Positions 4,722-24,367 of a stretch of DNA of 24,367 nucleotides are shown here, piece after piece. The first letter of the stretch is position 1. Every line of letters starts with the position of its first letter. Source of the DNA: a virus; IMG/VR virus record IMGVR_UViG_3300015360_000194, positions 1-24,367 of that record; one strand, written 5' to 3'. Under the pieces are notes generated by a model. The model made no database searches, had not been told where the DNA came from, and saw only the letters and a list, made by a program, of their open reading frames with translations. Both the position numbers and the translations under genes were made by a program.

Positions 4722-5557
4722 TGGCACTCATCTTTAAACCAGAGTTTCATCAATATCAAAGTATTGATCCTAGTGAGAAAATAGACTGGTTAGGAGTGAC
4801 TACATTTGTTTCTCATTTTAAACAGTCTTTTGATCCGGTAAAACAAGCTACCAGATCATCTAATAATGTTAGATCTAAATGGTATGGAATTTCTCCAGAA
4901 GAAATACAATCTATCTGGAAGGGTGAAGGAGACAGATCTACTACATTAGGTACATGGTATCATAATCAAAGAGAGAGTGATATTATGGAATTTGAGACTA
5001 TGGAAAGACATGGAGTTACAGTTCCTATTGTAAAGCCTATTATAATTGAGGGAATAAAATATGCTCCAGATCAGAAACTTCAGAATGGAATATATCCTGA
5101 GCATTTGGTATATTTAAAATCAGCTGGAATTTGTGGACAGTCAGATAGAGTAGAGGTAGTTAACAGACTTGTTTCTATTTCAGATTATAAAACCAGTAAA
5201 GAAATTAAGCTAGAAGGCTTTACTAATTGGGAGGGACGTACTACTAAAATGTTATATCCTTTAGATCACCTAGATGATTGTCATATAGTGCACTATGGAC
5301 TACAACTTAGTTTATATTTATACATGATTCTAAAGCATAATCCTCAGTTCATTCCAGGAAAGCTAGTTATAGACCATGTAATCTTTGAAGAAGAAGCCAG
5401 AGATAAATATAATTATCCTATATACAAAAAAGATTCATCTGGTAATTATGTGATTAAAGATCTAAAGCATTATCCAGTCCCTTATTATAAAAGTGAAGTA
5501 ATAGCTATGATTAACTATCTTAGAGACAACAGACATTTAATAAAAGTTAAGAAATGA
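4721..5557 (+). CDS. PD-(D/E)XK superfamily nuclease (RecB/Cas4-like)
   Basis: A 278-residue protein with the core motifs of the RecB/Cas4-like branch of the PD-(D/E)XK fold: GTWYH near 77-81, GQSDR with Asp142, SDYKTSK with Asp155 and Lys157 (the D-x-K pair that binds metal), and YGLQLSLY around 192-199 (the Q...Y helix). These residues are all in order, so it should be an active metal-dependent DNase. No Cys cluster for an iron-sulphur site is apparent. Such nucleases are frequent near the IHF-like and packaging genes of crAss-like phages and probably act in DNA processing or recombination. Its TGA overlaps the start of the next gene (ATGA). Confidence 0.85.
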   Translation: MALIFKPEFHQYQSIDPSEKIDWLGVTTFVSHFKQSFDPVKQATRSSNNVRSKWYGISPEEIQSIWKGEGDRSTTLGTWYHNQRESDIMEFETMERHGVTVPIVKPIIIEGIKYAPDQKLQNGIYPEHLVYLKSAGICGQSDRVEVVNRLVSISDYKTSKEIKLEGFTNWEGRTTKMLYPLDHLDDCHIVHYGLQLSLYLYMILKHNPQFIPGKLVIDHVIFEEEARDKYNYPIYKKDSSGNYVIKDLKHYPVPYYKSEVIAMINYLRDNRHLIKVKK

Positions 5558-6036
5558 AAAAAGAAGATGCTCTAAATATCCTTATAAAGGATTCTGATAC
5601 CAATCTTATTTCGGATATTGAAGTATGGAGAGATATACCAGAATATGAAGGTAGATATCAAGCAAGTACTTTTGGAAGAATAAAATCATTATCAAAAAAA
5701 GTAGGAAGACCCGATAGTAAAAATAAACTTATAAATAGAAGAAGAGATATTATTATGTGTAGTAAACTTAATCTAAATAATAAGAAATCATATCATAGAG
5801 TAAATTTAGGTAGAGATAATACATTTCTAGTACATAGACTAGTTGCTCAAACCTTTATTCCAAATCCTGAAAATAAACCGTGTATTAATCATTTAGATGG
5901 AAATAAAAATAACAATCATATTAATAATTTAGAGTGGTGTACCTATTATGAAAATAACCAACATGCTTATAGGCTAGGTCTAAATAAACCTCAACTTCAA
6001 AATCTAATCTATGGAAAAAGAAAAAGAAATTATTAA
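5554..6036 (+). CDS. Free-standing HNH homing endonuclease (NUMOD4 + HNH)
   Basis: The 160 residues contain a NUMOD4-like segment (about 24-50: VWRDIPEYEGRYQASTFGRI) and an HNH_3-type nuclease core, HRLVAQTFIPNP (94-105) followed by INHLDGNKNN with His113 and Asp115 and then NNLEWCT. This is the standard architecture of phage homing endonucleases that cut alleles lacking the element. It sits between the PD-(D/E)XK nuclease and a conserved WDGH-type gene, overlapping the first by four bases and the second by 26. The neighbours look complete, so it is free-standing rather than carried by an intron. Confidence 0.92.
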   Translation: MKKEDALNILIKDSDTNLISDIEVWRDIPEYEGRYQASTFGRIKSLSKKVGRPDSKNKLINRRRDIIMCSKLNLNNKKSYHRVNLGRDNTFLVHRLVAQTFIPNPENKPCINHLDGNKNNNHINNLEWCTYYENNQHAYRLGLNKPQLQNLIYGKRKRNY

Positions 6037-6388
6037 ATCTATAAATAGTTTAATAAGTAATCTAGATATTAATAAAGATAATATCAGTGATACTTATCAT
6101 ACATTCAAAGAATTATATGATCATAGAATAGTATTATTTATAGCACTTTGCAGATGTCTTGAAGGAACAGATCATGATGCATGGAGAACTATCAAACACT
6201 CAGACAATACTATCTGGAAAGGATGGTTTGTACTAGGACTTGGTAAAGAGCCAGGTAAACAAATTACATATCATTTACCTATAGAACTATGGGATAAATG
6301 TAAGTTTGCTGAGACCCTGGATAAAGCCCCAGAATTCGATGGTCATACTTCTGCAGATGTGTTAACTAGACTTAGAGATTTATGTTAG
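6011..6388 (+). CDS. Conserved phage protein with DGHTS motif ('WDGH' family)
   Basis: A 125-residue protein of a family common in phages and prophages, with the N-terminal block SDTYHTFKELYDHR (26-39), a central Trp-rich region (WKGWFVLGLG), a TYHLP segment and the C-terminal signature PEFDGHTSADV (107-117). The family has no established function that I know of. The blocks are all present and in order, so the gene looks intact despite the homing endonuclease inserted upstream. Its start is inside the tail of that endonuclease gene, and its TAG overlaps the next gene by seven bases. Confidence 0.8.
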   Translation: MEKEKEIIKSINSLISNLDINKDNISDTYHTFKELYDHRIVLFIALCRCLEGTDHDAWRTIKHSDNTIWKGWFVLGLGKEPGKQITYHLPIELWDKCKFAETLDKAPEFDGHTSADVLTRLRDLC

Positions 6389-6900
6389 CCTGTCTATTTG
6401 ATATAGAGAATGGAAAGATCATTCCTTCTATTCATGTTCATACTATTAAGTTCTTAAAAGATATCATAGATAAATATCCAAAGGATTATCTAAAGATCTA
6501 TCAATATCTATTTTACATCTGCTGTCCTAATCCTACCATAAATCCTTATTTTAATCTTCCGGAAGAAGATAAAGAACAAGTAATACTTAGTGATATAGAA
6601 GCTGAGTTTTCAATAGAAGATCCAATGATTATAACTGCAATTGAAAGATGTCATCAGTTATACGAAACTCCAACTTATAGATCAGCTATAGCAGCCAAAA
6701 TCATGTTAGATAAAATAAATAAGTATCTAAGAGAGACTAATATTAATGGAAATAGTAAAGATGGAAATGGAGCTTTTATTCTCCGAGCCATGAAAGATCT
6801 TACAGATATGAGGATGACTTATAAAAGTGCATATAAAGATCTTGAAGAAGAACAAAAGATACATGTTAGAGGTAAGATTGATAAAGCTTATGATCAGTAA
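6382..6900 (+). CDS. Conserved protein directly upstream of the terminase (small terminase candidate)
   Basis: A 172-residue, mostly helical protein with no motif I can name. Residues 1-60 include Cys-containing hydrophobic helices (FYICCPNP), and residues 90-172 are charged helices ending in a basic segment. It ends two bases before the large terminase starts, the usual position of a small terminase subunit, which would recognise viral DNA and regulate TerL. This is inference from location and size only; crAss-like small terminases are not easily recognised from sequence. It overlaps the previous gene by seven bases. Confidence 0.6.
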   Translation: MLACLFDIENGKIIPSIHVHTIKFLKDIIDKYPKDYLKIYQYLFYICCPNPTINPYFNLPEEDKEQVILSDIEAEFSIEDPMIITAIERCHQLYETPTYRSAIAAKIMLDKINKYLRETNINGNSKDGNGAFILRAMKDLTDMRMTYKSAYKDLEEEQKIHVRGKIDKAYDQ

Positions 6901-6902
6901 GT

Positions 6903-9900
6903 ATGAGTTACATAGAGATACCTACCTATGAAAACCAGTGGACTACTACTAGTTTTAAGACTAGAGAAGAGTTTAGAGATTTTATACTCTCTATTTTTAA
7001 GGAGCCTGGTCAATATGGGTTTGATGAGACTTCTCACAAGTTCAATGAGCAAGCCAGGATTTTTAATAAAGATAAAGTTTACTGTATAGCTCCTTCAAGA
7101 AGTAAGGATTATGTTACTTACTGGGATGATCAAAAGACAAAAAACAGGTGTGGGGCCATCTATAAAAATAATGGAAAGACCTGGTATCTAACCCGGGATT
7201 ATTATATGTGGTTAAATTTTCTTCCAATCTTTGATAAGGAAGAAGGACACTTTGGATTTGCTAAAGTAAGAGATGCTCAGTATCATATGGCCCTCTATGA
7301 ACTTTTAGCTGAATTACATAATCTACATGCAGCTATTCTTAAGAAACGGCAGATAGCCAGTAGCTACTTTCATTGTGCTAAACTGATAAATCAGATATGG
7401 TTTGAAGAAGGAGTTACTATGAAAATGGGAGCTTCTCACAAAGATTTTATTAATGAGAAAGGAACCTGGAAATTTCTTACTGAATATAGGAATTTCTTAG
7501 ATAAGCATACTGCATGGTATAGACCAATGAACCCGGGAAAGGTTCTCATGTGGCAGCAGCAAATAGAAGTAGTTATAAATAATAGAAAGACCAGTCAGGG
7601 TAATAAAGGAACTATACAAGGATTAACATTTGATAAAGATCCCACTAATGGAGTAGGAGGCCCTTGTGTTTTAAAAGATACATTAATAGTGATGCATGAC
7701 GGAACTCTCAAAAAAGTACAAGATATAATTTTAAATGATTATATAATAGGAATAGACGGTAAACCTAAAAAAGTAACAAAATTATACAGTGGAAAAGATC
7801 TTATGTATAAAGTAAGTCAATCAAAGGGAGATACATATGTTACTACTGGGGATCATAAATTATATTTATGGGATATAGAAAAAAAATCAAATATCATAAT
7901 TAAAACCAAAGATTTTATATCGTTATCTCAATGGAAGAAAAAAACAGTATTAAAGGGCGTTAAATATAACGGTATAGAAAATAAATACAAAAATCTTTTA
8001 ATAGATCCTTATTATTTAGGATTATACTTAGGCGATGGTTGTAAATATGATTATAGAATTTTAGTAAATAAAACAAAGGATATTGAAATATCTAATTATA
8101 TATACGAATTAGCAAAAAAAGAAGGTTATTTAGTAGAAGAAAGAAATAGAAATCTTTATAGAAAGGATTACAATGATCAAATGTGGGATATGAAACTAAG
8201 TTCTGGTTATAAAATAAAAACTATGTTACCCGCATATCATCATAGATTTGAAGAATTAGGTTTAAATAATAAACATATACCAGAATCTTATTTTACAGCA
8301 TCTAAACAACAAAGATTTGAATTATTAGCAGGAATATTAGATACGGATGGTTATCTTAATAATAAAAAACATAGATTTGAACTAAGTATAAAAAGTAAAA
8401 AACTTGCATATGATATTCAAAAATTATGCATACATCTTGGATTAGATGCACATATACATATTGTAAACTCTACTGGAAAAACTTCTACAGTATATAAATA
8501 TAAAACATCATGTTATAGGTTAAATATAACTGGAGATATTACTCATATACCTACTAAAATATTAAGAAAAAAAGCCACTAAATCGGGAATAAAATCAAAA
8601 AATAGATTTAGTAGTTTAAAAGTTACTAAGTATAAAGTAGATAATTATTACGGTTTTGAATGTGAGGATAATTTATTTATCTTAAAAGACGGAACTATTA
8701 CTCATAATTGCAGATATTTCTTCTATGAAGAAGGTGGTATAGCCCCAACAGCAGATACAACAATTGAGTACTTATTACCTGCTATGAAATCTGGTTTATT
8801 AACTACAGGATTATTTATTATAGCAGGATCAGTAGGTGATCTGGAGCAATGTGAGCCATTAAAAAAGATGATATTATATCCTTCAGGAAATGATATCTAT
8901 GCAGTAACAACAAATCTTATAGATGAGAAAGGAACTACAGATCTAGCTGGATTATTTATTCCGGAGCAATGGTCTATGCCTCCTTACATAGATGAGTTTG
9001 GTAACTCCCTAGTTGAAGAAGCTAATAAAGCAATAGATGAACTAAGATTGATTTGGAAGAGAGATCTATCTCCAGAAAAATACCAACTTAGGATTTCTCA
9101 ACATCCCCGGAATATCCAAGAGGCATTTGCTTATAGAAAAATATCTATATTTCCTCAAGTACATGTACAAAACCAAATTAGACGAATAGAAGAGAAGTTA
9201 TATCCATATGAGTTTCTGGACATTCATAGAAATGAAGAGGGAAAAGTAGCAGTAAAAGATACCGGTAAACTACCTATTAGTGAATTTCCTATAAGTCCAA
9301 AAAGAGAAGATAAAGAAGGAGTTCTTGTATGTTATGAGAGACCTATTAAAGATGCAGAATTTGGACTATACTATGCCTCAATAGATCCAGTCTCTGAAGG
9401 AAAAACTACTACTTCAGAATCATTATGTACCATCTATATTTATAAGAATGCAGTTCAAGTTACCAAAGCAGATAGAGCTGGTAAAATGGAGACCTTTATA
9501 GAGAGAGATGGAATAGTAGCTTCCTGGTGTGGTAGATTTAATGATATATCAAAAACTCATGAAAGACTAGAATTAATTATAGAGTGGTATAATGCATGGA
9601 CTATAGTTGAGAATAATGTGAGTCTATTCATTCAACACATGATAGCTCAGAGAAAACAGAAATATTTAGTACCAAAAGATCAGATACTCTTTCTAAAAGA
9701 TCTAGGAGCTAATCAGAATGTATACCAGGAATATGGTTGGAAGAATACAGGAACTCTCTTTAAAACTAATCTATTATCTTATGCTATTGAATATTTAACT
9801 GAGTCATTAGATACTGAAACTAAGCCCGATGGAACTATAGTAAAAACCACTTATGGAGTAGAGAGAATCCCGGATCCAATGTTATTAGTAGAGATGGCAG

Positions 9901-10139
9901 CTTATCAACCAGGACTAAACGTGGATAGATTAATTGCCTTCTCAGCTCTAGTAGCATTCGTGGCTATTCAAAAAGCTAATAGAGGAATAAGAAGAAGAGT
10001 AGATGAAGACTCTACTAAAAATTTGGATAAGTCCAAAAATTTGTATAAATTAAATAAGGGACTGTTTCATAATATGGGCTCTACTAACAAAAATTCAGAT
10101 TCAAGACCGTCAAGAAACCCATTTAAAAATCTTAGATAA
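6903..10139 (+). CDS. terL: Large terminase subunit (TerL) interrupted by an in-frame intein
   Basis: The reading frame has 1078 residues; removing the intein (255-602) leaves a 730-residue TerL, the motor that pumps DNA into the head. The N-terminal ATPase carries a Walker A-like site at 147-156 (KKRQIASSYF) that lacks the usual GK[ST], and a Walker B-type strand FFYEE (606-610) immediately after the intein. The coupling motif region is near 637-645. The C-terminal RNase H-like nuclease has candidate metal ligands Asp828 (YYASID), Glu903 (IVENN) and Asp1008 (NVDR). The intein lies four residues before Walker B, so packaging should depend on splicing. A GIY-YIG homing gene follows six bases later, then the portal gene. 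Confidence 0.95.
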   Translation: MSYIEIPTYENQWTTTSFKTREEFRDFILSIFKEPGQYGFDETSHKFNEQARIFNKDKVYCIAPSRSKDYVTYWDDQKTKNRCGAIYKNNGKTWYLTRDYYMWLNFLPIFDKEEGHFGFAKVRDAQYHMALYELLAELHNLHAAILKKRQIASSYFHCAKLINQIWFEEGVTMKMGASHKDFINEKGTWKFLTEYRNFLDKHTAWYRPMNPGKVLMWQQQIEVVINNRKTSQGNKGTIQGLTFDKDPTNGVGGPCVLKDTLIVMHDGTLKKVQDIILNDYIIGIDGKPKKVTKLYSGKDLMYKVSQSKGDTYVTTGDHKLYLWDIEKKSNIIIKTKDFISLSQWKKKTVLKGVKYNGIENKYKNLLIDPYYLGLYLGDGCKYDYRILVNKTKDIEISNYIYELAKKEGYLVEERNRNLYRKDYNDQMWDMKLSSGYKIKTMLPAYHHRFEELGLNNKHIPESYFTASKQQRFELLAGILDTDGYLNNKKHRFELSIKSKKLAYDIQKLCIHLGLDAHIHIVNSTGKTSTVYKYKTSCYRLNITGDITHIPTKILRKKATKSGIKSKNRFSSLKVTKYKVDNYYGFECEDNLFILKDGTITHNCRYFFYEEGGIAPTADTTIEYLLPAMKSGLLTTGLFIIAGSVGDLEQCEPLKKMILYPSGNDIYAVTTNLIDEKGTTDLAGLFIPEQWSMPPYIDEFGNSLVEEANKAIDELRLIWKRDLSPEKYQLRISQHPRNIQEAFAYRKISIFPQVHVQNQIRRIEEKLYPYEFLDIHRNEEGKVAVKDTGKLPISEFPISPKREDKEGVLVCYERPIKDAEFGLYYASIDPVSEGKTTTSESLCTIYIYKNAVQVTKADRAGKMETFIERDGIVASWCGRFNDISKTHERLELIIEWYNAWTIVENNVSLFIQHMIAQRKQKYLVPKDQILFLKDLGANQNVYQEYGWKNTGTLFKTNLLSYAIEYLTESLDTETKPDGTIVKTTYGVERIPDPMLLVEMAAYQPGLNVDRLIAFSALVAFVAIQKANRGIRRRVDEDSTKNLDKSKNLYKLNKGLFHNMGSTNKNSDSRPSRNPFKNLR
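7665..8708 (+). mobile_element. LAGLIDADG intein within terL (348 aa)
   Basis: The element occupies TerL residues 255-602. It begins with Cys255 as the first splice residue and ends in THN, with Cys603 as the +1 nucleophile. A block B-like TTGDH (Thr315, His318) is present. Two LAGLIDADG helices are recognisable, LGLYLGDG (372-379) and LAGILDTDG (475-483), with the expected acidic residues Asp378 and Asp482, so the homing nuclease looks intact. Block F/G is VDNYYGFECEDN ... THN. All splice and nuclease residues appear present, so both splicing and homing should be active. Its base composition differs from the flanking extein. Confidence 0.95.
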
Positions 10140-10144
10140 TTAAA

Positions 10145-10921
10145 ATGGCTTATCTTTATAGACATATTAGATTGGATAAAAATGAGCCTTTTTATATAGG
10201 AATAGGTTCTCAATCTGATAAGTACTATAGATCTAAAAGAATTACTAAAAGAAATAAAATCTGGAATGATATCTATATAAAAACAGAAATTAGAGTAGAT
10301 ATAGTATTAGATAATATATCCTGGGAAGAAGCCTGTAAAAAAGAAATAGAATTTATTAAATTATATGGAAGGATAGATAATAAAACTGGAGTATTATCTA
10401 ATCTTACAGATGGTGGTGAAGGGTATCTAAATCCATCAGAAGAAGTAAGAAACAAAATATCTATATCTAAATCAGGAAATAATAATCCATGGTATGGAAA
10501 GAAATTTTCTAAAGAACATTGTAATAAAATAGCACTAGGAAATACAGGAAGAAAAGTATCTAAAGAAACTAGAAAAAAGATTTCAGAATCTCAAAAAGGA
10601 ATTCCAAGAAATTCTGAAGAAATGAAAAAACATTTATCAAAAATAAATTCTGGTAGTAATCATCTACACTTTGGAAAACAAAAAAGTCAGTTAACTAGAA
10701 ATAAAATATCAGAAGCATTAACAGGAAAGAAATTATCACAAGAACATATTAATAAACTTAAAAATAAATCCAGAAAACATTCTAAGGTTATAAATATAGT
10801 TACAACAAAAATTTATAAGTCTATAAAAGAAGCTTCTAAAGATTATTATTTAGGATATGATACATTATTATTTAAACTAAAAGGAAAACGTATTAATAAT
10901 ACAAATTTTAAATTATTATAA
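10145..10921 (+). CDS. Free-standing GIY-YIG homing endonuclease with NUMOD3 repeats
   Basis: The 258-residue protein starts with a GIY-YIG domain: YLY (3-5) then FYIGIG (16-21), a catalytic glutamate in the KEIEFIKLYG helix (Glu67 or Glu69), and LTDGGEG (88-94). Several NUMOD3-type DNA-binding repeats follow (about 112-130, 131-150, 180-205; typical cores NPWYGKKFSKEH and GRKVSKETRKKIS). A C-terminal NUMOD1-like helix-turn-helix (about 214-250, with YKSIKEASK) completes the standard seg/I-TevI-like layout. It lies exactly between terL and the portal gene, six bases after one and one base before the other, so it is a mobile insertion at a gene junction. Confidence 0.93.
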   Translation: MAYLYRHIRLDKNEPFYIGIGSQSDKYYRSKRITKRNKIWNDIYIKTEIRVDIVLDNISWEEACKKEIEFIKLYGRIDNKTGVLSNLTDGGEGYLNPSEEVRNKISISKSGNNNPWYGKKFSKEHCNKIALGNTGRKVSKETRKKISESQKGIPRNSEEMKKHLSKINSGSNHLHFGKQKSQLTRNKISEALTGKKLSQEHINKLKNKSRKHSKVINIVTTKIYKSIKEASKDYYLGYDTLLFKLKGKRINNTNFKLL

Positions 10922-10922
10922 A

Positions 10923-13673
10923 ATGGAGGTTCTAAACGCATTACAATTAAAAAGTGGTAAAAAGGCTGATTCTCAAAGACTTGGAACTTTAATTATGCCA
11001 GTTCAGTTTCTTCCAAGAGATGAAAAGGATGACCAATGGTGGGCCAGTAATATGGATTGGTTGGAATGGCAAGGTCTCAAGCAAGTTAGAAGAAATGCCA
11101 GGAGATTAATGAAGAATTATAAGCTTGCTAAAGGTATAATTGATAAAACAGATTATATAGTTGAGGAAGACCAGGAATATGCTGAGTTGATTGATACTCT
11201 TACAAAGGAAGATTCTTCAGCTCTAGAGCTTAAGTTCTATCCTATTATTCCTAATGTTATCAACACAATGGTATCTGAGTTTGCTAAAAGGCACACTGGA
11301 GTATCCTTCAGAACAGTTGATGATTACTCATATAATGAGATGTTAGAAATGAAGAGACAACAAGTAGAAGATGTTCTCTTATCTGATGCTCAACAAAAGG
11401 TATTAATAAAACTTCAGGAGGCCGGCCTAGATCCAGCATCTGAAGAATATCAACAACAAATAGATCCTCAAAATCTAAAATCTCTTCCAGAAATACAAAG
11501 ATTCTTCTCCAAGACATATAGAAATATTCCTGAAGAGTGGGCAGAACACCAACATAATGTTGATGTTGAAAGATTTCATATGGAAGAACTTGAAGAAAGG
11601 GCATTCCGGGATATGCTTATTACAGATAGAGAATTCTGGCATTTCAGAATGATGGAAGATGACTATGAGATAGAACTATGGAATCCGGTACTTACTTTTT
11701 ATCATAAGTCTCCTGATGTAAGATATGTATCAGAAGGAAATTGGGTAGGAAAAACAGAGATGATGACTGTTCCTGATGTTATAGATAAGTATGGTTGGAT
11801 CATGACTGAAGAACAAACCAAGTCATTAGAAGCTATTTATCCAGTCAGATCTGCAGGATATGCTATCCAGGGATATCAGAATGATGGAAGTTACTATGAT
11901 GCTACTAAATCTCATGAATGGAATGTTAATATGCCATCATTAGGTTATAGACAATATGCATCTATGTGGGATAACTTTGAGGCTGGTGGAGATGTTGTTA
12001 ACTGGATCATGAGTGAGCAGGAAGATTATTATGAATTAGGACAAGCTTATTACCTAAGAGTAACTACAGCATATTGGAAGACTCAAAGAAAAGTAGGACA
12101 TCTTACATCTATAGATGAGAATGGAATATCTACTCAGAATATAGTAGATGAGGGACACAAGATAGTAGATAAACCAATTTATGATACAACATTATTTAAA
12201 AACAAGAAAAGAGAAAACCTCCTCTTTGGAGAACATATAGATTGGATATGGATTAATGAGTCATGTGGTGCAGTAAAGATTGGACCTAATAGACCAAGCT
12301 ACTGGGGAATGCCAGGTAATGGTGGAGTAACTCCAATATATCTAGGAATAAATCAGAATAAAATGGGAAGACTTCCTTTTCAGTATAAAGGAGATACCAC
12401 AGTATATGGTTGTAAACTTCCTGTAGAAGGTTCAGTATTCTCAGATAGAAATACCCGATCTACTGCTATGGTAGATTTAATGAAACCATTTCAGATAGCA
12501 TACAACATTGTCAATAATCAAATTGCTGATATCCTTATTGATGAATTAGGAACAGTAATTGCTCTTGATCAGAATGCATTACCAAGACACTCATTAGGAG
12601 AAGACTGGGGTAAAAACAATTATGCCAAGGCTTATGTAGCAATGAAGAACTTTCAGATTCTTCCTCTTGATACAACTATATCAAATACAGAAAATGCTAT
12701 AAGTAATACTCACTTTCAAAAACTAGATCTTGAGCAGACTAATAGATTACTTTCAAGAATAAATCTTGCCAGATATTTCAAAGAGCAAGCTTTTGAAACT
12801 ATTGGTATTACTCCACAGAGATTAGGAGGAGAAGTAGAACATGCTACAGCTACAGGAGTAAGAGTAGCTTTATCTAACTCATATGCACAGACTGAAACTT
12901 ATTTTATTCAGCACTGTGATTACTTGATGCCTAGAGTACACCAAATGAGAACTGATCTGGCTCAATATTATCAAACTAAAAAACCATCTCTAAGATTACA
13001 ATACATCACTACTGCAGAAGACAAGGTTAATTTCAGAATTAATGGAACTGATTTATTACTCAGAGATCTAAATATTTTCTGTACTACAAAAGCAAATACC
13101 CGGGCTGTACTGGAACAGCTAAAAGAACTGGCTCTAAACAATAATACTTCTACAGCATCTATTTATGATCTTAGTCATATTATTAAAACTGAATCAATAG
13201 CTGAGATAGAAAATGTATTGAAAGTCTCTGAAGAAAAAGTACAGGCTAGCAAACTACAAGAACAACAAGCTGCTGCTGAACTACAAGATCAAGCTATTAA
13301 AGCTAAGATAGAAGAAGCAAGACTCAAGCAAGAATTTGAAGCATCTGAGAATGAAAAAGACAGACAAGCTGGAATACTTGAAGCTGAAATAAAAGCTGCA
13401 GGATATGGAGCTATGCAAGATATAAACAAGAATGCAGTTAGTGACTACCAGGACGTTTTAGCTGATATACAAAAATCTGATCAATTCCAACAAACAATGA
13501 ATATTAATCAACTAAAAGTAACAAATCAGCAACAAGCACATTTAGATAAATTACAGATAGAAAGAGAGAAGATTCTTGCCTCTAAAGAAGTAGCAGATAA
13601 ACAACTTCAAATAGCTATTAGAAACAAAAATAGGTTTGATAAACCTACTCCACCGGCTAAGAAAAAGAAGTAG
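10923..13673 (+). CDS. Portal protein (crAss-like, long form)
   Basis: The 916-residue protein sits directly after the terminase and before the scaffold and capsid genes, the expected position for the dodecameric portal through which DNA enters the head and to which the neck attaches. Supporting features are length (crAss-like portals are near 800-950 residues), the aromatic-rich N-terminal region (WWASNMDWLEW about 39-49), large mixed alpha/beta wing and stem regions, and a long C-terminal coiled coil (about 760-905) rich in Gln, Ala, Glu and Lys with a basic tail. The coiled coil would fit a barrel or crown inside the head. Assignment is by context and overall resemblance; there is no short diagnostic motif. 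Confidence 0.88.
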   Translation: MEVLNALQLKSGKKADSQRLGTLIMPVQFLPRDEKDDQWWASNMDWLEWQGLKQVRRNARRLMKNYKLAKGIIDKTDYIVEEDQEYAELIDTLTKEDSSALELKFYPIIPNVINTMVSEFAKRHTGVSFRTVDDYSYNEMLEMKRQQVEDVLLSDAQQKVLIKLQEAGLDPASEEYQQQIDPQNLKSLPEIQRFFSKTYRNIPEEWAEHQHNVDVERFHMEELEERAFRDMLITDREFWHFRMMEDDYEIELWNPVLTFYHKSPDVRYVSEGNWVGKTEMMTVPDVIDKYGWIMTEEQTKSLEAIYPVRSAGYAIQGYQNDGSYYDATKSHEWNVNMPSLGYRQYASMWDNFEAGGDVVNWIMSEQEDYYELGQAYYLRVTTAYWKTQRKVGHLTSIDENGISTQNIVDEGHKIVDKPIYDTTLFKNKKRENLLFGEHIDWIWINESCGAVKIGPNRPSYWGMPGNGGVTPIYLGINQNKMGRLPFQYKGDTTVYGCKLPVEGSVFSDRNTRSTAMVDLMKPFQIAYNIVNNQIADILIDELGTVIALDQNALPRHSLGEDWGKNNYAKAYVAMKNFQILPLDTTISNTENAISNTHFQKLDLEQTNRLLSRINLARYFKEQAFETIGITPQRLGGEVEHATATGVRVALSNSYAQTETYFIQHCDYLMPRVHQMRTDLAQYYQTKKPSLRLQYITTAEDKVNFRINGTDLLLRDLNIFCTTKANTRAVLEQLKELALNNNTSTASIYDLSHIIKTESIAEIENVLKVSEEKVQASKLQEQQAAAELQDQAIKAKIEEARLKQEFEASENEKDRQAGILEAEIKAAGYGAMQDINKNAVSDYQDVLADIQKSDQFQQTMNINQLKVTNQQQAHLDKLQIEREKILASKEVADKQLQIAIRNKNRFDKPTPPAKKKK

Positions 13674-13687: not shown

Positions 13688-13762
13688 ATGAGAAGAATTT
13701 TACATTTAGTTATAAATCTAATAAGTTTAAACCTATATTTGATGCATCAGTATAAAGAATAA
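13688..13762 (+). CDS. Possible 24-aa hydrophobic micropeptide
   Basis: A short frame beginning ATG AGA AGA encodes 24 residues with a Leu/Ile/Asn-rich hydrophobic centre. It starts 15 bases after the portal stop, and its TAA shares one base with the ATG of the next gene (TAATG), a coupling pattern seen elsewhere in the window. That is the only support; it could equally be non-coding leader sequence left around the homing gene insertion. Confidence 0.25.
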   Translation: MRRILHLVINLISLNLYLMHQYKE

Positions 13763-14187
13763 TGAAGAGGATAGATAGAAAAGAATATCAAAAAGAATAT
13801 TACAAAAAATATAAAAATAGAGTAGATAGAAAGGATTATTATAGAAAATACGCAAAAACACATAAAAGAGATAGGAAAGAATATCAAAGAAAATATCAAG
13901 AAGGACTTAAGAATAATCAAGTATTTAAAAGACGTATTTTAAAAGACAAACATAAACCCTATCTATCTATTGAAGAATATAATAATTTATTTACACTCCA
14001 AAATGGAGAATGTGCTATATGTAACAAACATCAAGTTGAATTTAAAAAAGCACTAGCTATAGATCATGATCACAAGACAGGAAAAATTAGAGGATTATTA
14101 TGTTTTAAATGTAATGTAATGATAGGATTAGCTAAAGACAATATACAGATCTTAGAAAATGCAATAAATTATTTAAAGAACTACTAA
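13762..14187 (+). CDS. Endonuclease VII-like HNH homing endonuclease, copy 1
   Basis: A 141-residue protein whose first 60 residues are a Lys/Arg/Tyr-rich basic helical region (repeats of RKEYQ/KEYYKKY) and whose C-terminal half is a zinc-binding HNH domain of the T4 endonuclease VII type: CAIC (Cys84, Cys87), IDHDHKTG (His102-His104) and GLLCFKCN (Cys114, Cys117, Asn118). The C-terminal core closely resembles the gene at 18760-19248. In a phage this free-standing form is most likely a homing endonuclease, although a Holliday-junction resolvase role cannot be excluded. It sits between portal and scaffold genes, both of which look complete. Confidence 0.9.
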   Translation: MKRIDRKEYQKEYYKKYKNRVDRKDYYRKYAKTHKRDRKEYQRKYQEGLKNNQVFKRRILKDKHKPYLSIEEYNNLFTLQNGECAICNKHQVEFKKALAIDHDHKTGKIRGLLCFKCNVMIGLAKDNIQILENAINYLKNY

Positions 14188-17230: not shown

Positions 17231-17266
17231 GAGTATAAATATTAATAATTTAAAAACTTAAATAAA

Positions 17267-17692: not shown

Positions 17693-17706
17693 ATTTCAAT
17701 TAAGTT

Positions 17707-17730: not shown

Positions 17731-17735
17731 AACTA

Positions 17736-18752: not shown

Positions 18753-18759
18753 TGGATCT

Positions 18760-19248
18760 ATGAGTAAAGATAGATCAGAATATTCAAAAGAATGGTATCA
18801 GAAGAATAAAAATAGGATTAAAGAAAGAAATCATATTCATTATTTAAAAAATAAAGTTGAAATTAAAAAAAGAGTAAAAAAATATAGAAATAAGAATCCT
18901 CATATAGTAGATAAATATAACAGGAAGAGAGATAAAATAAGATCTTCTTATGATAAAGAAAGATATAAAAATAGTTATAGAAATAGTATCTATAAAAAGA
19001 AATATAATATATCTTTAGATGATTATAATAAATTATTTATTAATCAATATGGTCAGTGTTTAATATGTAAAATACATCAATCAGAATTAAGTAAAGCATT
19101 AGCAGTAGATCATGATCATAAAACTGGAGAAGTTAGAGGCTTATTATGTAGTAAGTGTAACATCATGTTAGGACTAGTTAATGATGATACTACAATTTTA
19201 CTAAATTTAATAAAGTATTTATCTATAAATAATATTAAAACTAAATAA
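18760..19248 (+). CDS. Endonuclease VII-like HNH homing endonuclease, copy 2
   Basis: A 162-residue paralogue of the gene at 13762-14187. The first 85 residues are strongly basic and Tyr/Lys/Asn-rich. The C-terminal HNH core has CLIC (Cys100, Cys103), VDHDHKTG (His118-His120) and GLLCSKCN (Cys130, Cys133, Asn134). Over the 32-residue core beginning KALA, 23 positions are identical between the two copies, while their N-terminal regions differ, suggesting the same nuclease with different target recognition. It lies between the 338-aa gene and a small gene with no damage to either. Confidence 0.9.
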   Translation: MSKDRSEYSKEWYQKNKNRIKERNHIHYLKNKVEIKKRVKKYRNKNPHIVDKYNRKRDKIRSSYDKERYKNSYRNSIYKKKYNISLDDYNKLFINQYGQCLICKIHQSELSKALAVDHDHKTGEVRGLLCSKCNIMLGLVNDDTTILLNLIKYLSINNIKTK

Positions 19249-19250
19249 CC

Positions 19251-19460: not shown

Positions 19461-19482
19461 TAATAACTAAAACTAAAATATC

Positions 19483-19674: not shown

Positions 19675-19676
19675 AA

Positions 19677-19796
19677 ATGGCAACTAAAAAACCAGCTTAC
19701 AAAACAGGAGGAATGAAAAATTCAAATTCTTCTGCAAAAGTAAACCCTTCTGTAAAGAAAGGTGTAGCAGTTAAAAAAATGGGTAAAAAGAAGTAG
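19677..19796 (+). CDS. Lys-rich 39-aa basic protein
   Basis: ATG at 19677 opens a 39-codon frame ending in TAG at 19794-19796, right after the previous gene (two bases) and three bases before the ring protein start. The product is very basic (about 13 Lys among 39 residues, no acidic residue) with Ser/Asn/Gly linkers, ending KKMGKKK. This could be a nucleic-acid-binding or virion-packaged peptide. Tight packing on both sides supports it as a real gene despite its size. Confidence 0.6.
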   Translation: MATKKPAYKTGGMKNSNSSAKVNPSVKKGVAVKKMGKKK

Positions 19797-19799
19797 TAG

Positions 19800-20504
19800 A
19801 TGAATAATGCAGCTATTCAAATAAAGGTTAAAGAAAGACTCAACAAGCTTGATAGCAAGGACTATGATAACATAGAATGCTGGCAAATTGTTGAGGCTTT
19901 CAATAAGGCCCAAATTGAATGGTGCAGAAGACAACTAGTAGGTTCTAATATCCTAAGACAAGGAGATGAGCAATCTAAAAGAAGAGTTTCAGATCTTGAG
20001 ACTCTTCTAACTACAGTTTCTATGGAACTTGTACATGCTCCTCTCTTCAGTGAATCAAGTGTATTACCTGCAGATTTTTTAGAGTTTAAAAGGTTGGAGC
20101 TATTTGCAACTAAAGACTGTTGCAAAGAGCCCCGCCTGATAACAGTCTATCTTGGAGAAGAAGCCAATGCTGTTAACTATCTCAAAGATGAAAACAAAAG
20201 ACCAAGTTATGATTGGGGAGAAACCTTTATTACTTTAATAGGAAATAAAGTCAGAGTATATACAGGTGGAGATTTTACAGTAGCATCCACAAAGATGGTG
20301 TACTATACAAAACCCCGGAATATACAGATTATAGGTTGTGTAAGTCTTGAAACACAACAGGTAGTTACAGTTAATGTAACTTCAGAATTAAAAGATGATG
20401 TCATTGAAGTAATCATTGATGACACTGTAGCAATACTAGCAGGTGATATAGAAGCTATGAATCAGTACTCAAGAGAAAGTCAGGCAGCAGAAAAGAATAA
20501 CTAA
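19800..20504 (+). CDS. Neck/tail ring protein candidate (crAss-like)
   Basis: A 234-residue protein. The N-terminal half is helical with the segment LDSKDYDNIECWQIVEAFNKAQIEW (start near 17), followed by an Arg-rich region with RQGDEQSKRRVSDLETLL; the second half is beta-rich (about 110-215: RLITVYLGEE, NKVRVYTGGD, MVYYTKPRNI). This helical then beta layout and the conserved N-terminal block resemble the head-to-tail ring proteins of crAss-like phages, which stack below the portal. The assignment comes from my recollection of the family and from the gene's place in the head-neck region. It is not secure at the level of which ring. Confidence 0.6.
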   Translation: MNNAAIQIKVKERLNKLDSKDYDNIECWQIVEAFNKAQIEWCRRQLVGSNILRQGDEQSKRRVSDLETLLTTVSMELVHAPLFSESSVLPADFLEFKRLELFATKDCCKEPRLITVYLGEEANAVNYLKDENKRPSYDWGETFITLIGNKVRVYTGGDFTVASTKMVYYTKPRNIQIIGCVSLETQQVVTVNVTSELKDDVIEVIIDDTVAILAGDIEAMNQYSRESQAAEKNN

Positions 20505-20513
20505 TTATATTTT

Positions 20514-20942
20514 ATGGACACGATACCAAGAAAATTAGCAAGTATGTCCTCTACAACAGGATCAGTAGATTCTTTAACAGCTGCTTGTGTATCAGAATTA
20601 ATGAATGCTGCAGTATCTTTTCATAAGTTACATCTTAAGATTACTGGCACCGGATCATATGCTGGTCATAAAGCTCTTAATGAAATCTATGATGCATTAC
20701 CAGGACTTGCTGATGATGTAGCAGAAGGATACCAAGGAGCTAGTGAAAAACTTCTAGTTTATACTGAAGTATCACCTAAAATATTGAAGTCTGTAGATGA
20801 TGGAGTAAAGTATCTTAGAGATATGATAGCAATGGTAACAGCTTTACAAGTTAAAATGCCTTATAGTGAGATTATTAATGATCTTGATAATGTAAAAACC
20901 CAATTTAATTCAACAAAATATAAATTAATTTTTCTTAAATAA
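20514..20942 (+). CDS. Ferritin/Dps-like four-helix protein (DUF5856-like)
   Basis: A 142-residue, almost wholly helical protein. Residues 30-75 carry a ferritin/Dps-like pattern: FHKLHLK (His37, His40), HKALNEIYD (His52, Glu57, Asp60), then LADDVAEGYQG (Asp67, Asp68, Glu71), the spacing of metal-binding residues across Dps helices. Similar proteins (DUF5856, as I remember the name) occur in crAss-like and T4-like phages; their role is not established. Iron handling, DNA protection, or a structural use of the four-helix fold are all possible. It is the last gene before an AT-rich promoter candidate, nine bases after the ring protein gene. Confidence 0.7.
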   Translation: MDTIPRKLASMSSTTGSVDSLTAACVSELMNAAVSFHKLHLKITGTGSYAGHKALNEIYDALPGLADDVAEGYQGASEKLLVYTEVSPKILKSVDDGVKYLRDMIAMVTALQVKMPYSEIINDLDNVKTQFNSTKYKLIFLK

Positions 20943-21033
20943 AATAATTAATATTTTATTTGGATTTTAAATTTATTATCTTTATATTATAATATGTGTA
21001 TAAATTTTGTGTATAACTAAAAACTAAAAAACA
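20943..21033 (+). promoter_or_regulatory. AT-rich leader with tandem TGTGTATAA, probable promoter
   Basis: This 91-base gap is nearly all A and T. It holds TTTG at 20959-20962 and TATCTTTA at 20977-20984, which resemble the Bacteroides -33 and -7 elements but are too close together (14 bases) for the usual 19-21. Two exact copies of TGTGTATAA (20995-21003, 21008-21016) follow, then the leader AACTAAAAACTA shared with the 3194 gene. A promoter for the large virion gene is likely; the exact elements are uncertain. Confidence 0.45.
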
Positions 21034-23142
21034 ATGGCTTATTTCAATCATGCATTTGCAAAACTCTTTATTGGGACACATCCTACTCAGGCAGCTGATG
21101 GATCCCACTCTGGAGTAACCACAGGATTCTTGGTAACATCCAGAATACCTAGTGTACAATTAATCAATAGAGCATCACCTTACCAATTAGGATTAGGTGT
21201 ATTTGGACTCTTTGATCCAAAAACTTATTTATCAGTAATTGCTGCTGATGCCCAGATTACAACTGGAGCACCGTTGATTCTAGCAAGTACTGCTTTATAT
21301 CAACATGACAAGATTGGTCCTTTCCATGGTGGATACCAGGAATCAACCAAATCTAAAATGATCAATCCTAAATACGTAAACAGATTTTATAGAGTAGATC
21401 CTTGTACACCTAACCAAAATGTGGTGCATGTAGGTAATACTCCTTATACTAATGGTGGTGGAGTAGCCTCAGTAACTATTACTGGTGCTGGAACAGGATA
21501 CACTAATGGTACTTATACTAACATAGTATTAACTGGTGCAGTTGGTAACGGTGCCCTTGCAACAGTAACAGTAGCTGGTGGTGCGATCACTGCAGTTGCT
21601 ATTACTGCTCCAGGTAGTTTCTATGATGTAGGTAATGTACTTGGTGTAACTGGTATTACTTTTACTCCTGGTACTGCAGCAGTACTAACTGTAGCAGCTA
21701 TCACAGCAGTAACTGATGTTACATGCTGCAAAGAGTTTTTATGTGATGAAACATACTTCTTAAGAGTAGATGTTAAAGGTTCACCAGAATTGAGATACTT
21801 ATCTCGTAATGGATACTGGACTACTGCATCTTACACTGGATGTTGCCCTGCAGGTTGTGGAACTCCGGTACCAGTTGATTCTACTTTAGTATTTATTGGA
21901 TGGGCTAATGAACTTCTTGCAAATAGAATTGTAGGTCCATTCTTGAATATAGTAATCTATGATGAAAATGGTGTTGGATGGTATGCTCCAGGCCAAGATA
22001 TTAAAGTTGGTGACACTGGTGGATTTGATTTAAGTCCAGGTGTTGGTGCAGCAACTATCACTAATGCTGGTTCGGGATATAACAATGGTACATTTACTAA
22101 TGTAACATTCCAAAGTTCTGGTTCAGGTGTTGGAGCTGTAGCAACAGTAACAGTTGCCGGTGGAGTAGTAACTGCAGTAGTATTTAATAATCCAGGTTTA
22201 AGTTATGCAGTAGGAGATACTTTAACTTCTCCTTTGTTATCACCAGGAACAGGATTAGTACTTACAGTTACTGCAACAGTGACTCCAACATGGGATAATT
22301 ACGTATCTCCAGGCCATATTGATGGTGCTTGTGCAGGTATGAAAATTATGGGTGCCTTTATTGACACTAAATTTGGAGATTGTACTTTCTATCCAACTGA
22401 TTATTTTGAGAAAGAACCAGTTAAAATCCTCCCTTCTGAAGTAGATGAAACAGGAGATGTATGTGCATTCACTGGTCTTTGTATAGTTGAGCAATGTCCT
22501 CCAAGACAAGGTATGGGCTTTGGTGAACAAGTTTTAAGAGACTTGATCTTATCAGAAAGCTATATGCAGAATTACTTCTATACTGGAGAAGATCTTCGTA
22601 TTAGAGAAGTAACTCAAGGATATGATATATCTAGTGCAATTATTAGATCAGCTCAATACTATAGATACTTTATCTTACATAGTGTTCCAAGGTTTAATAA
22701 CCCAACTGGAGTATTTGATAATGATCAATATCTATTAGAGATCATAACTACTGCAGTTAGTGCTACATTTGAGTCTACAATGGCAACCTGGTTAACAGCT
22801 TGTAATTGTTCAATAGCACTTGAAACATATGCATGTGGGGCAGCTTGTCCTGGTGCTTGTGCTATTCTTACCTTTGTACCAACAGCTGGTGCAGTATCAG
22901 GTGGAACAGTAGATATACCATATGTATTCACTCCAATTGCAGTATCAGGTGGAACAGCTCCTTATAGCTTTGAAGTTACAGCTGGTGCTTTACCTCCAGG
23001 TTTAGTACTAGGTGCTACAACAGGTGATATCACAGGAACACCAACTACTACCGGAACATATGAGTTCACAGTATCAGTAGTTGATACTAATGGATGTCAG
23101 ACAAATGTTGTTTACTCAATCACTGTAGTAGCAGCAGGATAA
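21034..23142 (+). CDS. Large beta-rich virion protein with duplicated inserts and C-terminal Ig-like domain
   Basis: The 702-residue protein has a conserved-looking core (about 1-140, 230-335 and 415-610: GFLVTSRIPSVQLINRASPY, ELRYLSRNGYW, MGFGEQVLRDLILSESYMQ) interrupted by two related beta-rich inserts at about 144-222 and 338-414. Each insert follows the scheme TITxAGxGYxNGTxTN ... ATVTVAGG ... TAV ... PGxxYxVGxxL ... VLTV. The last 75 residues (about 628-701) form a He_PIG/cadherin-like Ig domain with GGTAPYSFEVTAGALPPGL and GDITGTPTTTGTYEFTV. Such surface domains often bind carbohydrate or mucin. The core is probably a crAss-like structural protein. It has its own upstream promoter candidate and a terminator immediately downstream, so it may be a separate transcription unit. 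Confidence 0.75.
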   Translation: MAYFNHAFAKLFIGTHPTQAADGSHSGVTTGFLVTSRIPSVQLINRASPYQLGLGVFGLFDPKTYLSVIAADAQITTGAPLILASTALYQHDKIGPFHGGYQESTKSKMINPKYVNRFYRVDPCTPNQNVVHVGNTPYTNGGGVASVTITGAGTGYTNGTYTNIVLTGAVGNGALATVTVAGGAITAVAITAPGSFYDVGNVLGVTGITFTPGTAAVLTVAAITAVTDVTCCKEFLCDETYFLRVDVKGSPELRYLSRNGYWTTASYTGCCPAGCGTPVPVDSTLVFIGWANELLANRIVGPFLNIVIYDENGVGWYAPGQDIKVGDTGGFDLSPGVGAATITNAGSGYNNGTFTNVTFQSSGSGVGAVATVTVAGGVVTAVVFNNPGLSYAVGDTLTSPLLSPGTGLVLTVTATVTPTWDNYVSPGHIDGACAGMKIMGAFIDTKFGDCTFYPTDYFEKEPVKILPSEVDETGDVCAFTGLCIVEQCPPRQGMGFGEQVLRDLILSESYMQNYFYTGEDLRIREVTQGYDISSAIIRSAQYYRYFILHSVPRFNNPTGVFDNDQYLLEIITTAVSATFESTMATWLTACNCSIALETYACGAACPGACAILTFVPTAGAVSGGTVDIPYVFTPIAVSGGTAPYSFEVTAGALPPGLVLGATTGDITGTPTTTGTYEFTVSVVDTNGCQTNVVYSITVVAAG
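21463..21699 (+). repeat. Beta-rich insert, copy 1 (in the 702-aa virion protein)
   Basis: This segment codes for residues 144-222, which align with residues 338-414: GAGTGYTNGTYTN against NAGSGYNNGTFTN, ATVTVAGGAITAV against ATVTVAGGVVTAV, and a shared PG...YxVGxxL and VLTV end. The DNA copies are diverged, so the duplication is old or the two arrived separately. Confidence 0.8.
22045..22275 (+). repeat. Beta-rich insert, copy 2 (in the 702-aa virion protein)
   Basis: The second insert encodes residues 338-414 and shares the motif order of copy 1. The two copies are separated by about 115 residues of core protein, so they occupy two distinct surface loops rather than a tandem array. Confidence 0.8.
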
Positions 23143-23161
23143 ATTGTATGAATTGGTAAAG

Positions 23162-23198
23162 AAAAGGGAAGGAGGACAAAAACTTCCTTCCCTTTTTT
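23162..23198 (+). terminator. Intrinsic terminator after the 702-aa virion gene
   Basis: AAAAGGGAAGGA (23162-23173) pairs perfectly with TCCTTCCCTTTT (23185-23196) around an 11-base loop, followed by a run of T (23193-23198) and further T-rich sequence. The 12-bp stem is the strongest in the window. It lies about 20 bases after the stop codon of the large virion gene. Confidence 0.9.
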
Positions 23199-23231
23199 AT
23201 TTTTAATTAACTTTATTCATACATTTAACCT

Positions 23232-23789
23232 ATGGCAAAACATGTCCTAAGTCTAGAAATACCTGATGTACTGAACTCTTGCATTATAAGAGTTATAGAT
23301 ACTTCAGTTTATGATCCTACTATTCCTCTTGAGTGTCCTAAGTTAGAAATAACAAGTCCAGGATTTTGGGAAGCTTCTATAGTACCAGATATAGAACCCG
23401 GATTTATAGAGAATATCACAGCATGTGCTTTAGGTATTCAAACAACTAATTGCACTACTACATTCAATACCCTACCAGATGGAGTATATATTGCAAGATA
23501 TAGTGTTTCTCCCAATGATATAGTCTTTGTAGAATATAATCATTTAAGAATAACATCAGCACTAAAAAAATACAGTAATGTATTATGTTGTCTTGATATA
23601 AGAGGTTGTGATCCTACTGCAGAGATAGATAAGTTCATTAGAGAACTTCAGTTCATAAGAACATTATTTGATGCAGCAAAAGCAAAAGTAGAATACTGTC
23701 ATTCACCAAAACATGGAATGGATATTTATTTATATGCATTAAAGAGACTAAATAAATTAAGTTGTTTATGTGGGTGTGGAAATTGTTAA
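23232..23789 (+). CDS. Conserved crAss-like protein, probable virion component
   Basis: A 185-residue protein with a beta-rich N-terminal domain (about 1-110, with LEITSPGFWEASIVPDIEPGF, TTFNTLPDGVYIARYSVSPND and VFVEYNHLRIT, an Ig-like pattern) and a helical C-terminal part (about 115-185) ending in a Cys cluster (CLCGCGNC). I believe this domain pairing recurs in crAss-like phages near the neck and tail genes. A structural role is inferred; no enzyme motif is present. It starts 33 bases after the terminator run, so it may depend on read-through or its own weak promoter. A partial GIY-YIG gene follows after one base. Confidence 0.6.
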   Translation: MAKHVLSLEIPDVLNSCIIRVIDTSVYDPTIPLECPKLEITSPGFWEASIVPDIEPGFIENITACALGIQTTNCTTTFNTLPDGVYIARYSVSPNDIVFVEYNHLRITSALKKYSNVLCCLDIRGCDPTAEIDKFIRELQFIRTLFDAAKAKVEYCHSPKHGMDIYLYALKRLNKLSCLCGCGNC

Positions 23790-23790
23790 T

Positions 23791-24367
23791 ATGGAAAGAC
23801 AAGGACATATATATGCATTAGTTGATCCTAGAAATGATCAAATTAGATACATTGGAAAAACTTTATTTCCTAAGTCTAGATTAAGTAAACATTTAACAGA
23901 AAAATATCTAGGTACTCATAAACAGAAATGGATAAGATTATTGAAAATTAATAATATAAAACCTAGTTTTAAAATATTATATACAGGTTCTGAATCAAAT
24001 CTAAATTTTTGTGAAATAGAATTAATAAAACATTATAAAAGTTTCTGTAAATTAACTAACGGAACTATTGGTGGAGATGGAGGAACAGGAAGACAAAATA
24101 ATAAAGCAATTATAGAAAGGATGAAATCAGATAGAAATCCTATGAAAGAGTCCTCTATAGCTAGAAGAGTTGCTAATATAAACAAACTAAATGGAGTAGA
24201 TGAATCTAATAGACAAAGAATGTTATCAGATATCAATCCAGGGAAGAAACAAATGAAAAAGATTTATCAATATACAAAAGATAATCTATTAATAAAAGAA
24301 TGGAATTGTATAAAAGAAGCAGCAGATACATTAAAAATAGCTAGATCAAATATATCCAGAGCCTGTA
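23791..24367 (+). CDS. GIY-YIG homing endonuclease, incomplete at window end
   Basis: ATG at 23791 opens a frame with no stop before the window edge, giving 192 residues so far. The N-terminal GIY-YIG domain has HIYALVDPRNDQIRYIGKT (6-24), a downstream Arg30, a catalytic glutamate in FCEIELIKHY (Glu75 or Glu77) and LTNGTIGGDGG (88-98). A NUMOD1-like helix-turn-helix begins near 157 (KIYQYTKDN ... CIKEAADTLKIARSNISRA), so only a short C-terminal end is probably missing. It is less rich in NUMOD3 repeats than the GIY-YIG gene at 10145, so the two are related only in the nuclease domain. It begins one base after the preceding virion gene. Confidence 0.9.
   Translation, partial: MERQGHIYALVDPRNDQIRYIGKTLFPKSRLSKHLTEKYLGTHKQKWIRLLKINNIKPSFKILYTGSESNLNFCEIELIKHYKSFCKLTNGTIGGDGGTGRQNNKAIIERMKSDRNPMKESSIARRVANINKLNGVDESNRQRMLSDINPGKKQMKKIYQYTKDNLLIKEWNCIKEAADTLKIARSNISRAC

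Follow-up and report, generated by a model that had tools for sequence, protein, structure and literature searches.

Replacement of the end of an essential gene by a homing element was described for Torulaspora and Lachancea yeasts, where WHO elements substitute a resistant version for the 3' end of FBA1, the former end persisting as a fragment (PMC7282813). Elsewhere, it is stated as an assumption that a homing gene, on being acquired, arrives with the resistant cleavage sequence of its donor (PMC12724721). Furthermore, homing genes were reported to cluster near terminase and capsid genes in other phages (PMC10448857), and two closely related Zeta crAss-like phages were described as carrying five and three homing genes with none in common (PMC12386605). 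In this study, the virus record IMGVR_UViG_3300015360_000194 was analyzed over its entire length of 24,367 b, hereafter termed the window. Six nuclease elements of four families, located on one strand between position 5554 and the window end, had been proposed in an initial annotation and were confirmed by Pfam or, in the case of the gene GIY1, by NUMOD3, PHROG and alignment. Comparison with relatives revealed patchy occupancy of the corresponding junctions, recoded starts of the downstream genes, relics of old starts, and a nuclease gene moving as a block with the end of its target. On this basis, the six are probably separately acquired homing elements (five free-standing genes and one intein), and the free-standing ones are most likely of a target-replacing type.

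Gene starts downstream of nuclease genes in relatives

Relatives were collected by scans with the major capsid protein, tail, portal, TerL and 17736 genes of the window, keeping the best 80 loci at most per scan, and 383 loci (labelled L###; contigs of at least 90 kb are labelled G###) were mapped. Identical junction sequences were counted once, and the loci of the window's own phage, L306 and L082, were excluded from most counts.

For GIY-YIG genes at the terL/portal junction, where GIY1 resides in the window, the difference rate at portal nucleotides (nt) 4–48 was compared with that at nt 49–480 between each carrier and its nearest empty relative. Thirteen carrier representatives were considered, ten of which had an empty relative of at least 0.84 portal identity and were scored; L068, L347 and L398 were unscored, and L393 and L416 were not among the representatives. 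All ten scored carriers showed an excess at nt 4–48 (0.09–0.19 per site, mean 0.144), as compared with a mean of about zero for 102 control pairs of two empty relatives (5–95% range −0.09 to 0.15); the carrier mean was not reached in any of 20,000 resamplings. The differences between carrier junctions and their nearest empty relatives appear as a burst in the first 24–48 nt of the portal gene, followed again by agreement: L201 and L200 differ at seven positions in nt 1–24 and at none over the following 96, L379 and L327 at seven and one, respectively, and L326 and L235 at 11 positions in nt 1–36 with identical first 20 amino acids. Synonymous differences predominate in the recoded stretch of eight of the ten pairs, the exceptions being L412 and L417. 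In the closest pairs (L379–L327, L201–L200, L454–L183 and L016–L287), the terL end is nearly unchanged; terL ends of distant pairs were not comparable gap-free.

Furthermore, endonuclease VII (EndoVII)-like genes of relatives were found directly upstream of the homologue of a virion structural gene (phrog_29507) that is nuclease-free in the window, and seven distinct carriers were examined. The start of this gene is recoded after the nuclease gene, with a mean excess of 0.184 in six carriers (L349, at 0.68 identity, was omitted from the mean) versus −0.015 in 57 control pairs (0/20,000 resamplings). Moreover, a relic of the old start was detected upstream of the nuclease gene by comparison with the starts of near relatives, scoring 37–92 in six of the seven carriers, whereas none of 142 empty loci scored above 28. 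The nuclease genes lie within the 5' end of their target. In L060, L107 (MLNSTITVKIK), L320 and L349, the old start forms an in-frame fusion with the nuclease; in L071, L102 and L042, it is unfused. No intact nuclease frame was recovered from L042; L513 represents the same arrangement with an intact frame. In the six carriers with a listed frame, the nuclease stop overlaps the new start. The first eight residues of the L349 nuclease are the same as those of its target. Judged from these sequences, the EndoVII-like genes at this target carry a relic of the WHO kind, in six of seven cases by DNA and in L349 by the protein start only.

Upstream of the nuclease gene, L107 and L102 share 99–100% identity, and over target nt 90–500 they are 100% identical, whereas their nuclease genes are only 63–73% and the first 90 nt of their targets 67–87% identical. 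Compared with L060, L107 reaches 80–95% over the stretch of nuclease and target start (93% in the first 90 nt) and 65–83% over the rest of the target. The relic start of L107 corresponds to the empty locus L152 at 32/32 bases, a value derived from the alignment score. This identity pattern and the relic present in L107 itself suggest that the nuclease gene and the first 90 nt of the target arrived as a block from an L060-like source, with a break that the block limits place between about nt 33 and 90. As read from the alignment, the recipient genome evidently kept its own old start on the left side.

Start duplication was also evaluated in a wider, non-random sample comprising clade members and other phages fetched by nuclease similarity. 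Gene starts left and right of the nuclease were compared in an anchored manner for 154 distinct nuclease genes with a downstream gene (82 EndoVII, 72 GIY). Duplication at the floor p value (≤0.01) was observed for 16 of them, with 1.5 expected. Seven of the 16 concern the phrog_29507 gene and one the portal gene (L068), and the cases that prompted the test are included. The remaining eight are L509 (NAMPT-like target), L426 and L434 (phage lysozyme, similar loci), L448 (DUF7936), L439 (start resembling that of L448), L464 (virion structural gene), L445 (gene of 94 amino acids) and L428, a weak case. In L487, featuring a target gene of 103 amino acids, the start duplication stands out by local alignment. 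For four cases outside the clade (L509, L487, L464 and L426), no close empty alleles were found: the best relative of the L509 target besides its own contig is 58% identical, and blastn of the other three against named phages returned one partial match or none. A scan of all loci for neighbouring genes with equal N-termini yielded 23 hits versus 24.6 under the null, many of them similar non-nuclease pairs; it was therefore uninformative as a general test and was replaced by the nuclease-anchored one.

Occupancy of the junctions and nuclease load

The initial annotation had proposed repeated homing and had named, as the outcome speaking against it, the same nuclease genes at the same sites in all relatives. 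This outcome was not seen. Upon scoring of presence and absence in relatives, the junctions were mostly empty, and repeated homing is supported by patchy occupancy at each scorable junction, by the scattering of terL/portal carriers on a tree and by the block transfer between L060-like and L107 genomes. Because occupancy is patchy, stable residence was rejected for the scorable sites.

The intein site was empty in 224 of 226 distinct junctions and filled only in L007 and L051, whose inteins share 26–29% identity with that of the window. At the terL/portal junction, a GIY gene was present in nine of 249 distinct junctions (L016, L019, L068, L199, L201, L326, L347, L360 and L379) before a targeted GIY search; after it, 16 of 256 junctions, a biased count, measured at least 500 nt. 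At the portal/14223 junction, occupied by the EndoVII-like gene E7a in the window, none of 248 distinct relatives carries an EndoVII-like gene, and three (L153, L339 and L345) have inserts of at least 500 nt. The L153 insert matches the second GIY gene of the window, GIY2, by tblastn, but Pfam calls no GIY-YIG domain in it. The insert of 223 amino acids in L339 and L345 was rejected as a nuclease and represents a PhoH gene (L339:6152-6823) residing at E7a's junction. The 17736/19251 junction, the site of E7b, was empty in both relatives having both genes, the only two that were scorable. In all 90 distinct relatives scored, 60 nt or less separate the flanks of the GIY2 site (23232/next gene). 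The exonuclease-like gene and the 6382 gene, separated by 824 nt in the window, lie within 60 nt of each other in 93 of 156 distinct junctions. No homologue of HNH1 was found among the 383 loci at E 1e-3. Taken together, free-standing genes with domains of known homing families are present or absent at one site among close relatives, with intact flanks.

On a terL+portal tree of 216 rows, from which loci with stops or short proteins had been removed, ten GIY carriers, the window included, correspond to ten changes. A sliding comparison groups L016 and L019 as sisters along most of the region, which makes nine events the safer count. The tree had set these two apart beside the empty L287 and L017, and a co-conversion tract considered for the four loci was contradicted by the sliding comparison: a mosaic stretch covering the 3' portal and the next gene had misled the tree, so that one event is counted and no clean co-conversion tract can be claimed here. 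The mosaic of L016, L019, L017 and L287 extends over about 1.8 kb from the 3' portal into the next gene, with switching partners, and is separate from the GIY insertion.

In order to evaluate nuclease density, five families were searched in 33 contigs of at least 90 kb. These include G001 (IMGVR_UViG_3300020180_000013, 96,195 b), which represents the same phage as the window (99.95% identity over window positions 7736–24367, zero indels). In total, G001 carries ten nuclease elements (four GIY-YIG, one HNH_3, two Endonuclease_7, two LAGLIDADG_3 including one sub-cut-off, and GIY1 by NUMOD3 only), six of them within the 18.8 kb of the window cluster. The 32 other contigs sum up to 24 elements with a maximum of four per contig, namely 11 GIY-YIG, one HNH_3, six Endonuclease_7, three sub-threshold LAGLIDADG_3 and three NUMOD3-only elements (G005, G025 and G027, the latter below cut-off). 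The load is unusual for the clade of this phage, and the cluster is regarded as going beyond chance because the junctions are mostly shorter in most relatives and the load lies far above that of the other contigs. The four further nuclease matches of G001 outside the window are located at contig positions 12425, 20085, 51979 and 95860; the open reading frame of the match at 51979 begins approximately at the end of a gene of 1680 amino acids and stops just before one of 662 amino acids.

Features of the window and the profile matches assigned to them
Feature	Position	Strand	Best profile match
Exonuclease-like gene, left neighbour of HNH1	4721-5557
HNH1, NUMOD4-HNH nuclease gene	5554..6036	+	Pfam NUMOD4 6.6e-10, HNH_3 4.4e-7
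Small accessory gene, right neighbour of HNH1	6011-6388
terL, split by the intein	6903..10139	+	PHROG terminase large subunit 3.6e-44
Intein with LAGLIDADG homing domain, TerL residues 255-602	7665..8708	+	Pfam Hom_end_hint 3.5e-14, LAGLIDADG_3 2e-8
GIY1, GIY-YIG/NUMOD3 nuclease gene at the terL/portal junction	10145..10921	+	Pfam NUMOD3 3.5e-18
Portal start, 48 nt, recoded in GIY-bearing relatives; putative GIY1 target	10923..10970	+
Portal gene	10923..13673	+	PHROG portal protein 1.2e-84
E7a, Endonuclease VII-like nuclease gene	13762..14187	+	Pfam Endonuclease_7 1.5e-25
E7b, Endonuclease VII-like nuclease gene	18760..19248	+	Pfam Endonuclease_7 9.4e-25
Virion structural gene, nuclease-free here; homologue is the EndoVII-like target in relatives	19800..20504	+	phrog_29507 5.4e-12
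GIY2, GIY-YIG/NUMOD1 nuclease gene, truncated by the window end	23791..24367	+	Pfam GIY-YIG 7.8e-6, NUMOD1 8.5e-7

Gaps of 1–35 b or short overlaps next to the nuclease genes, as described initially, apply in general, and HNH1 overlaps both neighbours; E7a deviates with a left gap of 88 nt, which is ordinary given a portal/14223 spacing of 61–200 nt in 241 of 248 distinct relatives. The statement that intact core genes flank each free-standing gene does not hold for the small accessory gene and for 19251-19460, which were recognized in four and five of the 383 loci, respectively (two of the latter five being the same phage). For GIY1, Pfam calls no GIY-YIG domain itself; the gene matches the PHROG 'homing endonuclease' (1.9e-20), and a GIY-YIG core is visible in an alignment with nine other sequences. 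The stop of GIY2, read from G001, corresponds to window position 24381.

The TerL insert, whose borders were taken from the sequence, contains Hint and LAGLIDADG domains in an intact host frame, with C as its first residue and HN followed by C at its end, presumably the splice-site residues of an intein. By these sequence features, the insert is classified as an intein with a homing domain. An intein match in Klebsiella phage JD001 (L392, NC_020204.1) was rejected as evidence for a shared TerL site, since the protein annotated as 'terminase large subunit' reads as helicase-type; by reading of the sequence, the JD001 intein sits at a Walker A-like motif of this protein.

In E7a and E7b, the DHDH and CxxC residues are kept, and the Endonuclease_7 motif is C-terminal (residues 68–140 of 141 and 79–155 of 162, respectively). 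Judged by motif position, neither protein has the N-terminal EndoVII motif of T4-type resolvases (PMC6083498). At the DNA level, 216 nt of the C-terminal catalytic part (13961–14175 and 19007–19221) are 74.5% identical between the two genes, and their N-terminal parts differ; this likeness may reflect domain swapping, duplication or capture from one family.

Capsid and TerL proteins of the window show weak matches to crAss-like phages, under which we also count cr-named database records, and the window phage is a distant relative of crAssphage. The nearest named phage by capsid protein (window 15552–17168) is Leptolyngbya phage Lbo-JY46 with 27.6%, which has a cyanobacterial host; crAss-like phages are typically associated with Bacteroidota. 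When the window was searched by megablast against 50,697 phage records, zero matches were returned. A tail-region gene of 702 amino acids contains an internal repeat (21470–21615 versus 22049–22197, 69.7% identity).

Proposed replacement of gene starts and alternative explanations

According to the proposed mechanism, the nuclease would act on genomes lacking its gene and cut the immediate downstream neighbour at the 5' coding end, and repair would then copy in the nuclease gene along with the donor's form of this end. The donor form would encode nearly the same amino acids by other codons, so that it would no longer fit the nuclease and the essential gene would still function. At some sites, the recipient's old start would remain upstream as a relic, either as part of a fusion with the nuclease or as a short dead frame. 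Both the putative cutting at the target start and the putative resistance of the recoded version are deduced from sequence comparison. The window's own free-standing genes presumably act like the elements of the relatives: GIY1 is of one group with the GIY genes that precede recoded portal starts and occupies their junction; E7a and E7b, with 40 and 47% identity to the L107 nuclease, are located at other genes. There may be a general phage class of natural 'home-and-rescue' elements, in which GIY-YIG or EndoVII-type nucleases address the first codons of virion, portal, lysozyme, NAMPT-like and other genes in different phages and carry a recoded copy, by which the cut site would be lost and the gene rescued, the free-standing window genes being members whose relics are gone; the chances for and against such a class are judged to be balanced.

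Several observations weigh against the proposed replacement. In the window, no duplicated start was found at GIY1, E7a and E7b (p 0.47, 0.14 and 0.91, anchored test), and no relic of the respective downstream gene was found at any of the five free-standing genes, GIY2 and HNH1 having been checked in the relic search only. Furthermore, the nearest empty relative of the window, at about 76% in portal DNA, is too distant for the recoding comparison. Single portal carriers are unremarkable alone (1–11% of controls reach each), and the largest control excess, 0.209, exceeds all carriers. Moreover, seven of 43 empty pairs at 97% identity or more have at least five portal-start differences, all within L363–L374. 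The pairs are not fully independent, since L016 and L019 are sisters and L199 and L412 share one empty relative; L102 and L107 are likewise not fully independent. Among the EndoVII carriers, the excess of L071 alone (0.065) is reached by 16% of controls, and the DNA relic score of 26 in L349 is indistinguishable from empty loci. As for rejected candidates, the best relic scores near GIY1 and GIY2, obtained with 319 portal and 100 downstream-gene starts, were 26 each, as compared with largest shuffle scores of 26 and 24; both lie off the gene start and were read as chance. The empty phages L363–L374 have portals 97–99% identical with different codon sets at nt 4–48, and the portal start of the empty L374 is nearly that of the carrier L201, yet their portals are less than 90% identical. 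These variant starts may represent resistant alleles outliving the nuclease or travelling without it.

Ordinary free-standing homing with co-conversion, in which a divergent donor flank is copied and no special rescue-carrying element exists, is the most serious alternative, with a probability slightly short of even. Co-conversion by free-standing T4 genes is known (PMC2988022), as is resistance via the donor's cleavage sequence (PMC12724721), and only L068 among the 15 GIY junctions inspected retains a piece of the portal start; at the window junctions, no such piece is retained. However, a relic plus a second, recoded start, sometimes with the relic fused to the nuclease, exceeds what a plain two-sided tract would leave, and the change in the closest terL/portal pairs is one-sided. 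Selection on translation, by which a new upstream gene alters the start context and weaker RNA structure at the start is favoured, is considered quite improbable as the cause of recoding. Folding of the start region is indeed 1.4–1.6 kcal/mol weaker on average in 15 carriers than in their empty partners, a point that also counts against the proposed replacement, but the difference is not significant (p 0.10 and 0.08), control pairs with spacing differences of other origin lack an excess on average (10 pairs, −0.02), and the relic starts and the L107/L060 block would be left unexplained.

A beneficial resident function appears highly improbable. The EndoVII-like genes could resolve branches before packaging, as T4 EndoVII is a resolvase (PMC6083498), or the terL/portal nuclease could aid packaging like HrdP, for which a packaging role was proposed and which lies between terL and portal in each of the 89 Skunavirus genomes that one study covered (PMC12724721). 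Most relatives are, however, without nuclease genes at these sites, Endonuclease_7 and GIY-YIG occur in only seven and nine of the 33 long contigs, respectively, and this phage has two EndoVII genes whose catalytic motif occupies the C-terminus, like that of the homing clade described in PMC6083498. A motive along the lines of the initial annotation, by which nuclease genes would cluster in the virion region mainly as weapons against co-infecting relatives, is rather unlikely. An intron-borne nuclease was reported to interfere in this manner in another phage (PMC11620839), but homing alone accounts for the sites: homing into conserved positions explains the placement without any gain from harm.

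Relation to known homing and gene-drive systems

Target replacement as proposed here resembles that of WHO elements in that a homing nuclease lies by an essential gene, the gene end is replaced, a fragment of the old end persists and the target becomes chimeric (PMC7282813). In the yeasts, as described there, the 3' end of FBA1 and WHO nucleases are concerned and cleavage was shown, whereas the phage case concerns the 5' end of phage genes and GIY-YIG or EndoVII-like nucleases and is derived from sequence; moreover, the relic start of the phage elements is sometimes fused to the nuclease, unlike in the WHO elements of that account (PMC7282813). With the Seg and Mob genes of T4-like phages, the elements share the location of free-standing nuclease genes between phage genes, a target in the neighbouring gene and co-conversion of flanks, but a second copy of the target start or a nuclease-fused relic is not part of the description consulted (PMC2988022).

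The C-terminal position of the EndoVII motif is shared with F-CphI and the DHHRN group of free-standing phage homing nucleases. F-CphI is described as protected by an intron in psbA (collaborative homing), whereas no intron was seen here and the target end is recoded in relatives (PMC6083498). Clusters of homing endonuclease genes (HEG) and HEG-islands of ICP1 and other phages likewise place numerous homing genes close to essential genes, among them those for terminase and capsid; these islands are highly identical stretches of more than 10 kb bordered by homing genes, as opposed to single genes and a few dozen target bases here (PMC10448857). No long identical block shared with distant phages was found by megablast against the 50,697 phage records, a search for such blocks that did not extend to viral contigs.

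In the open-access literature on duplicated or recoded gene ends, no phage precedent with a relic start was found, by which absence from print is not established. Homing genes of this clade that travel with a recoded replacement of their neighbour's start, sometimes leaving the old start behind, would be new as far as the literature was searched. Such elements would explain how free-standing homing genes spare their own genome without an intron or intein hiding the site. The mechanism predicts nuclease cut sites in the first 24–90 nt of the downstream gene and makes many uncharacterised phage nucleases testable. If true, rescue of a target by recoding, as used in synthetic gene drives, has a naturally evolved counterpart in phages, which mirrors the yeast WHO elements at the 5' end. 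In synthetic home-and-rescue drives, a recoded copy keeps the target gene working. The nuclease of these drives is likewise aimed at an essential gene, but they are engineered CRISPR systems in insects according to PMC7968924, whereas the phage elements would represent a natural case.

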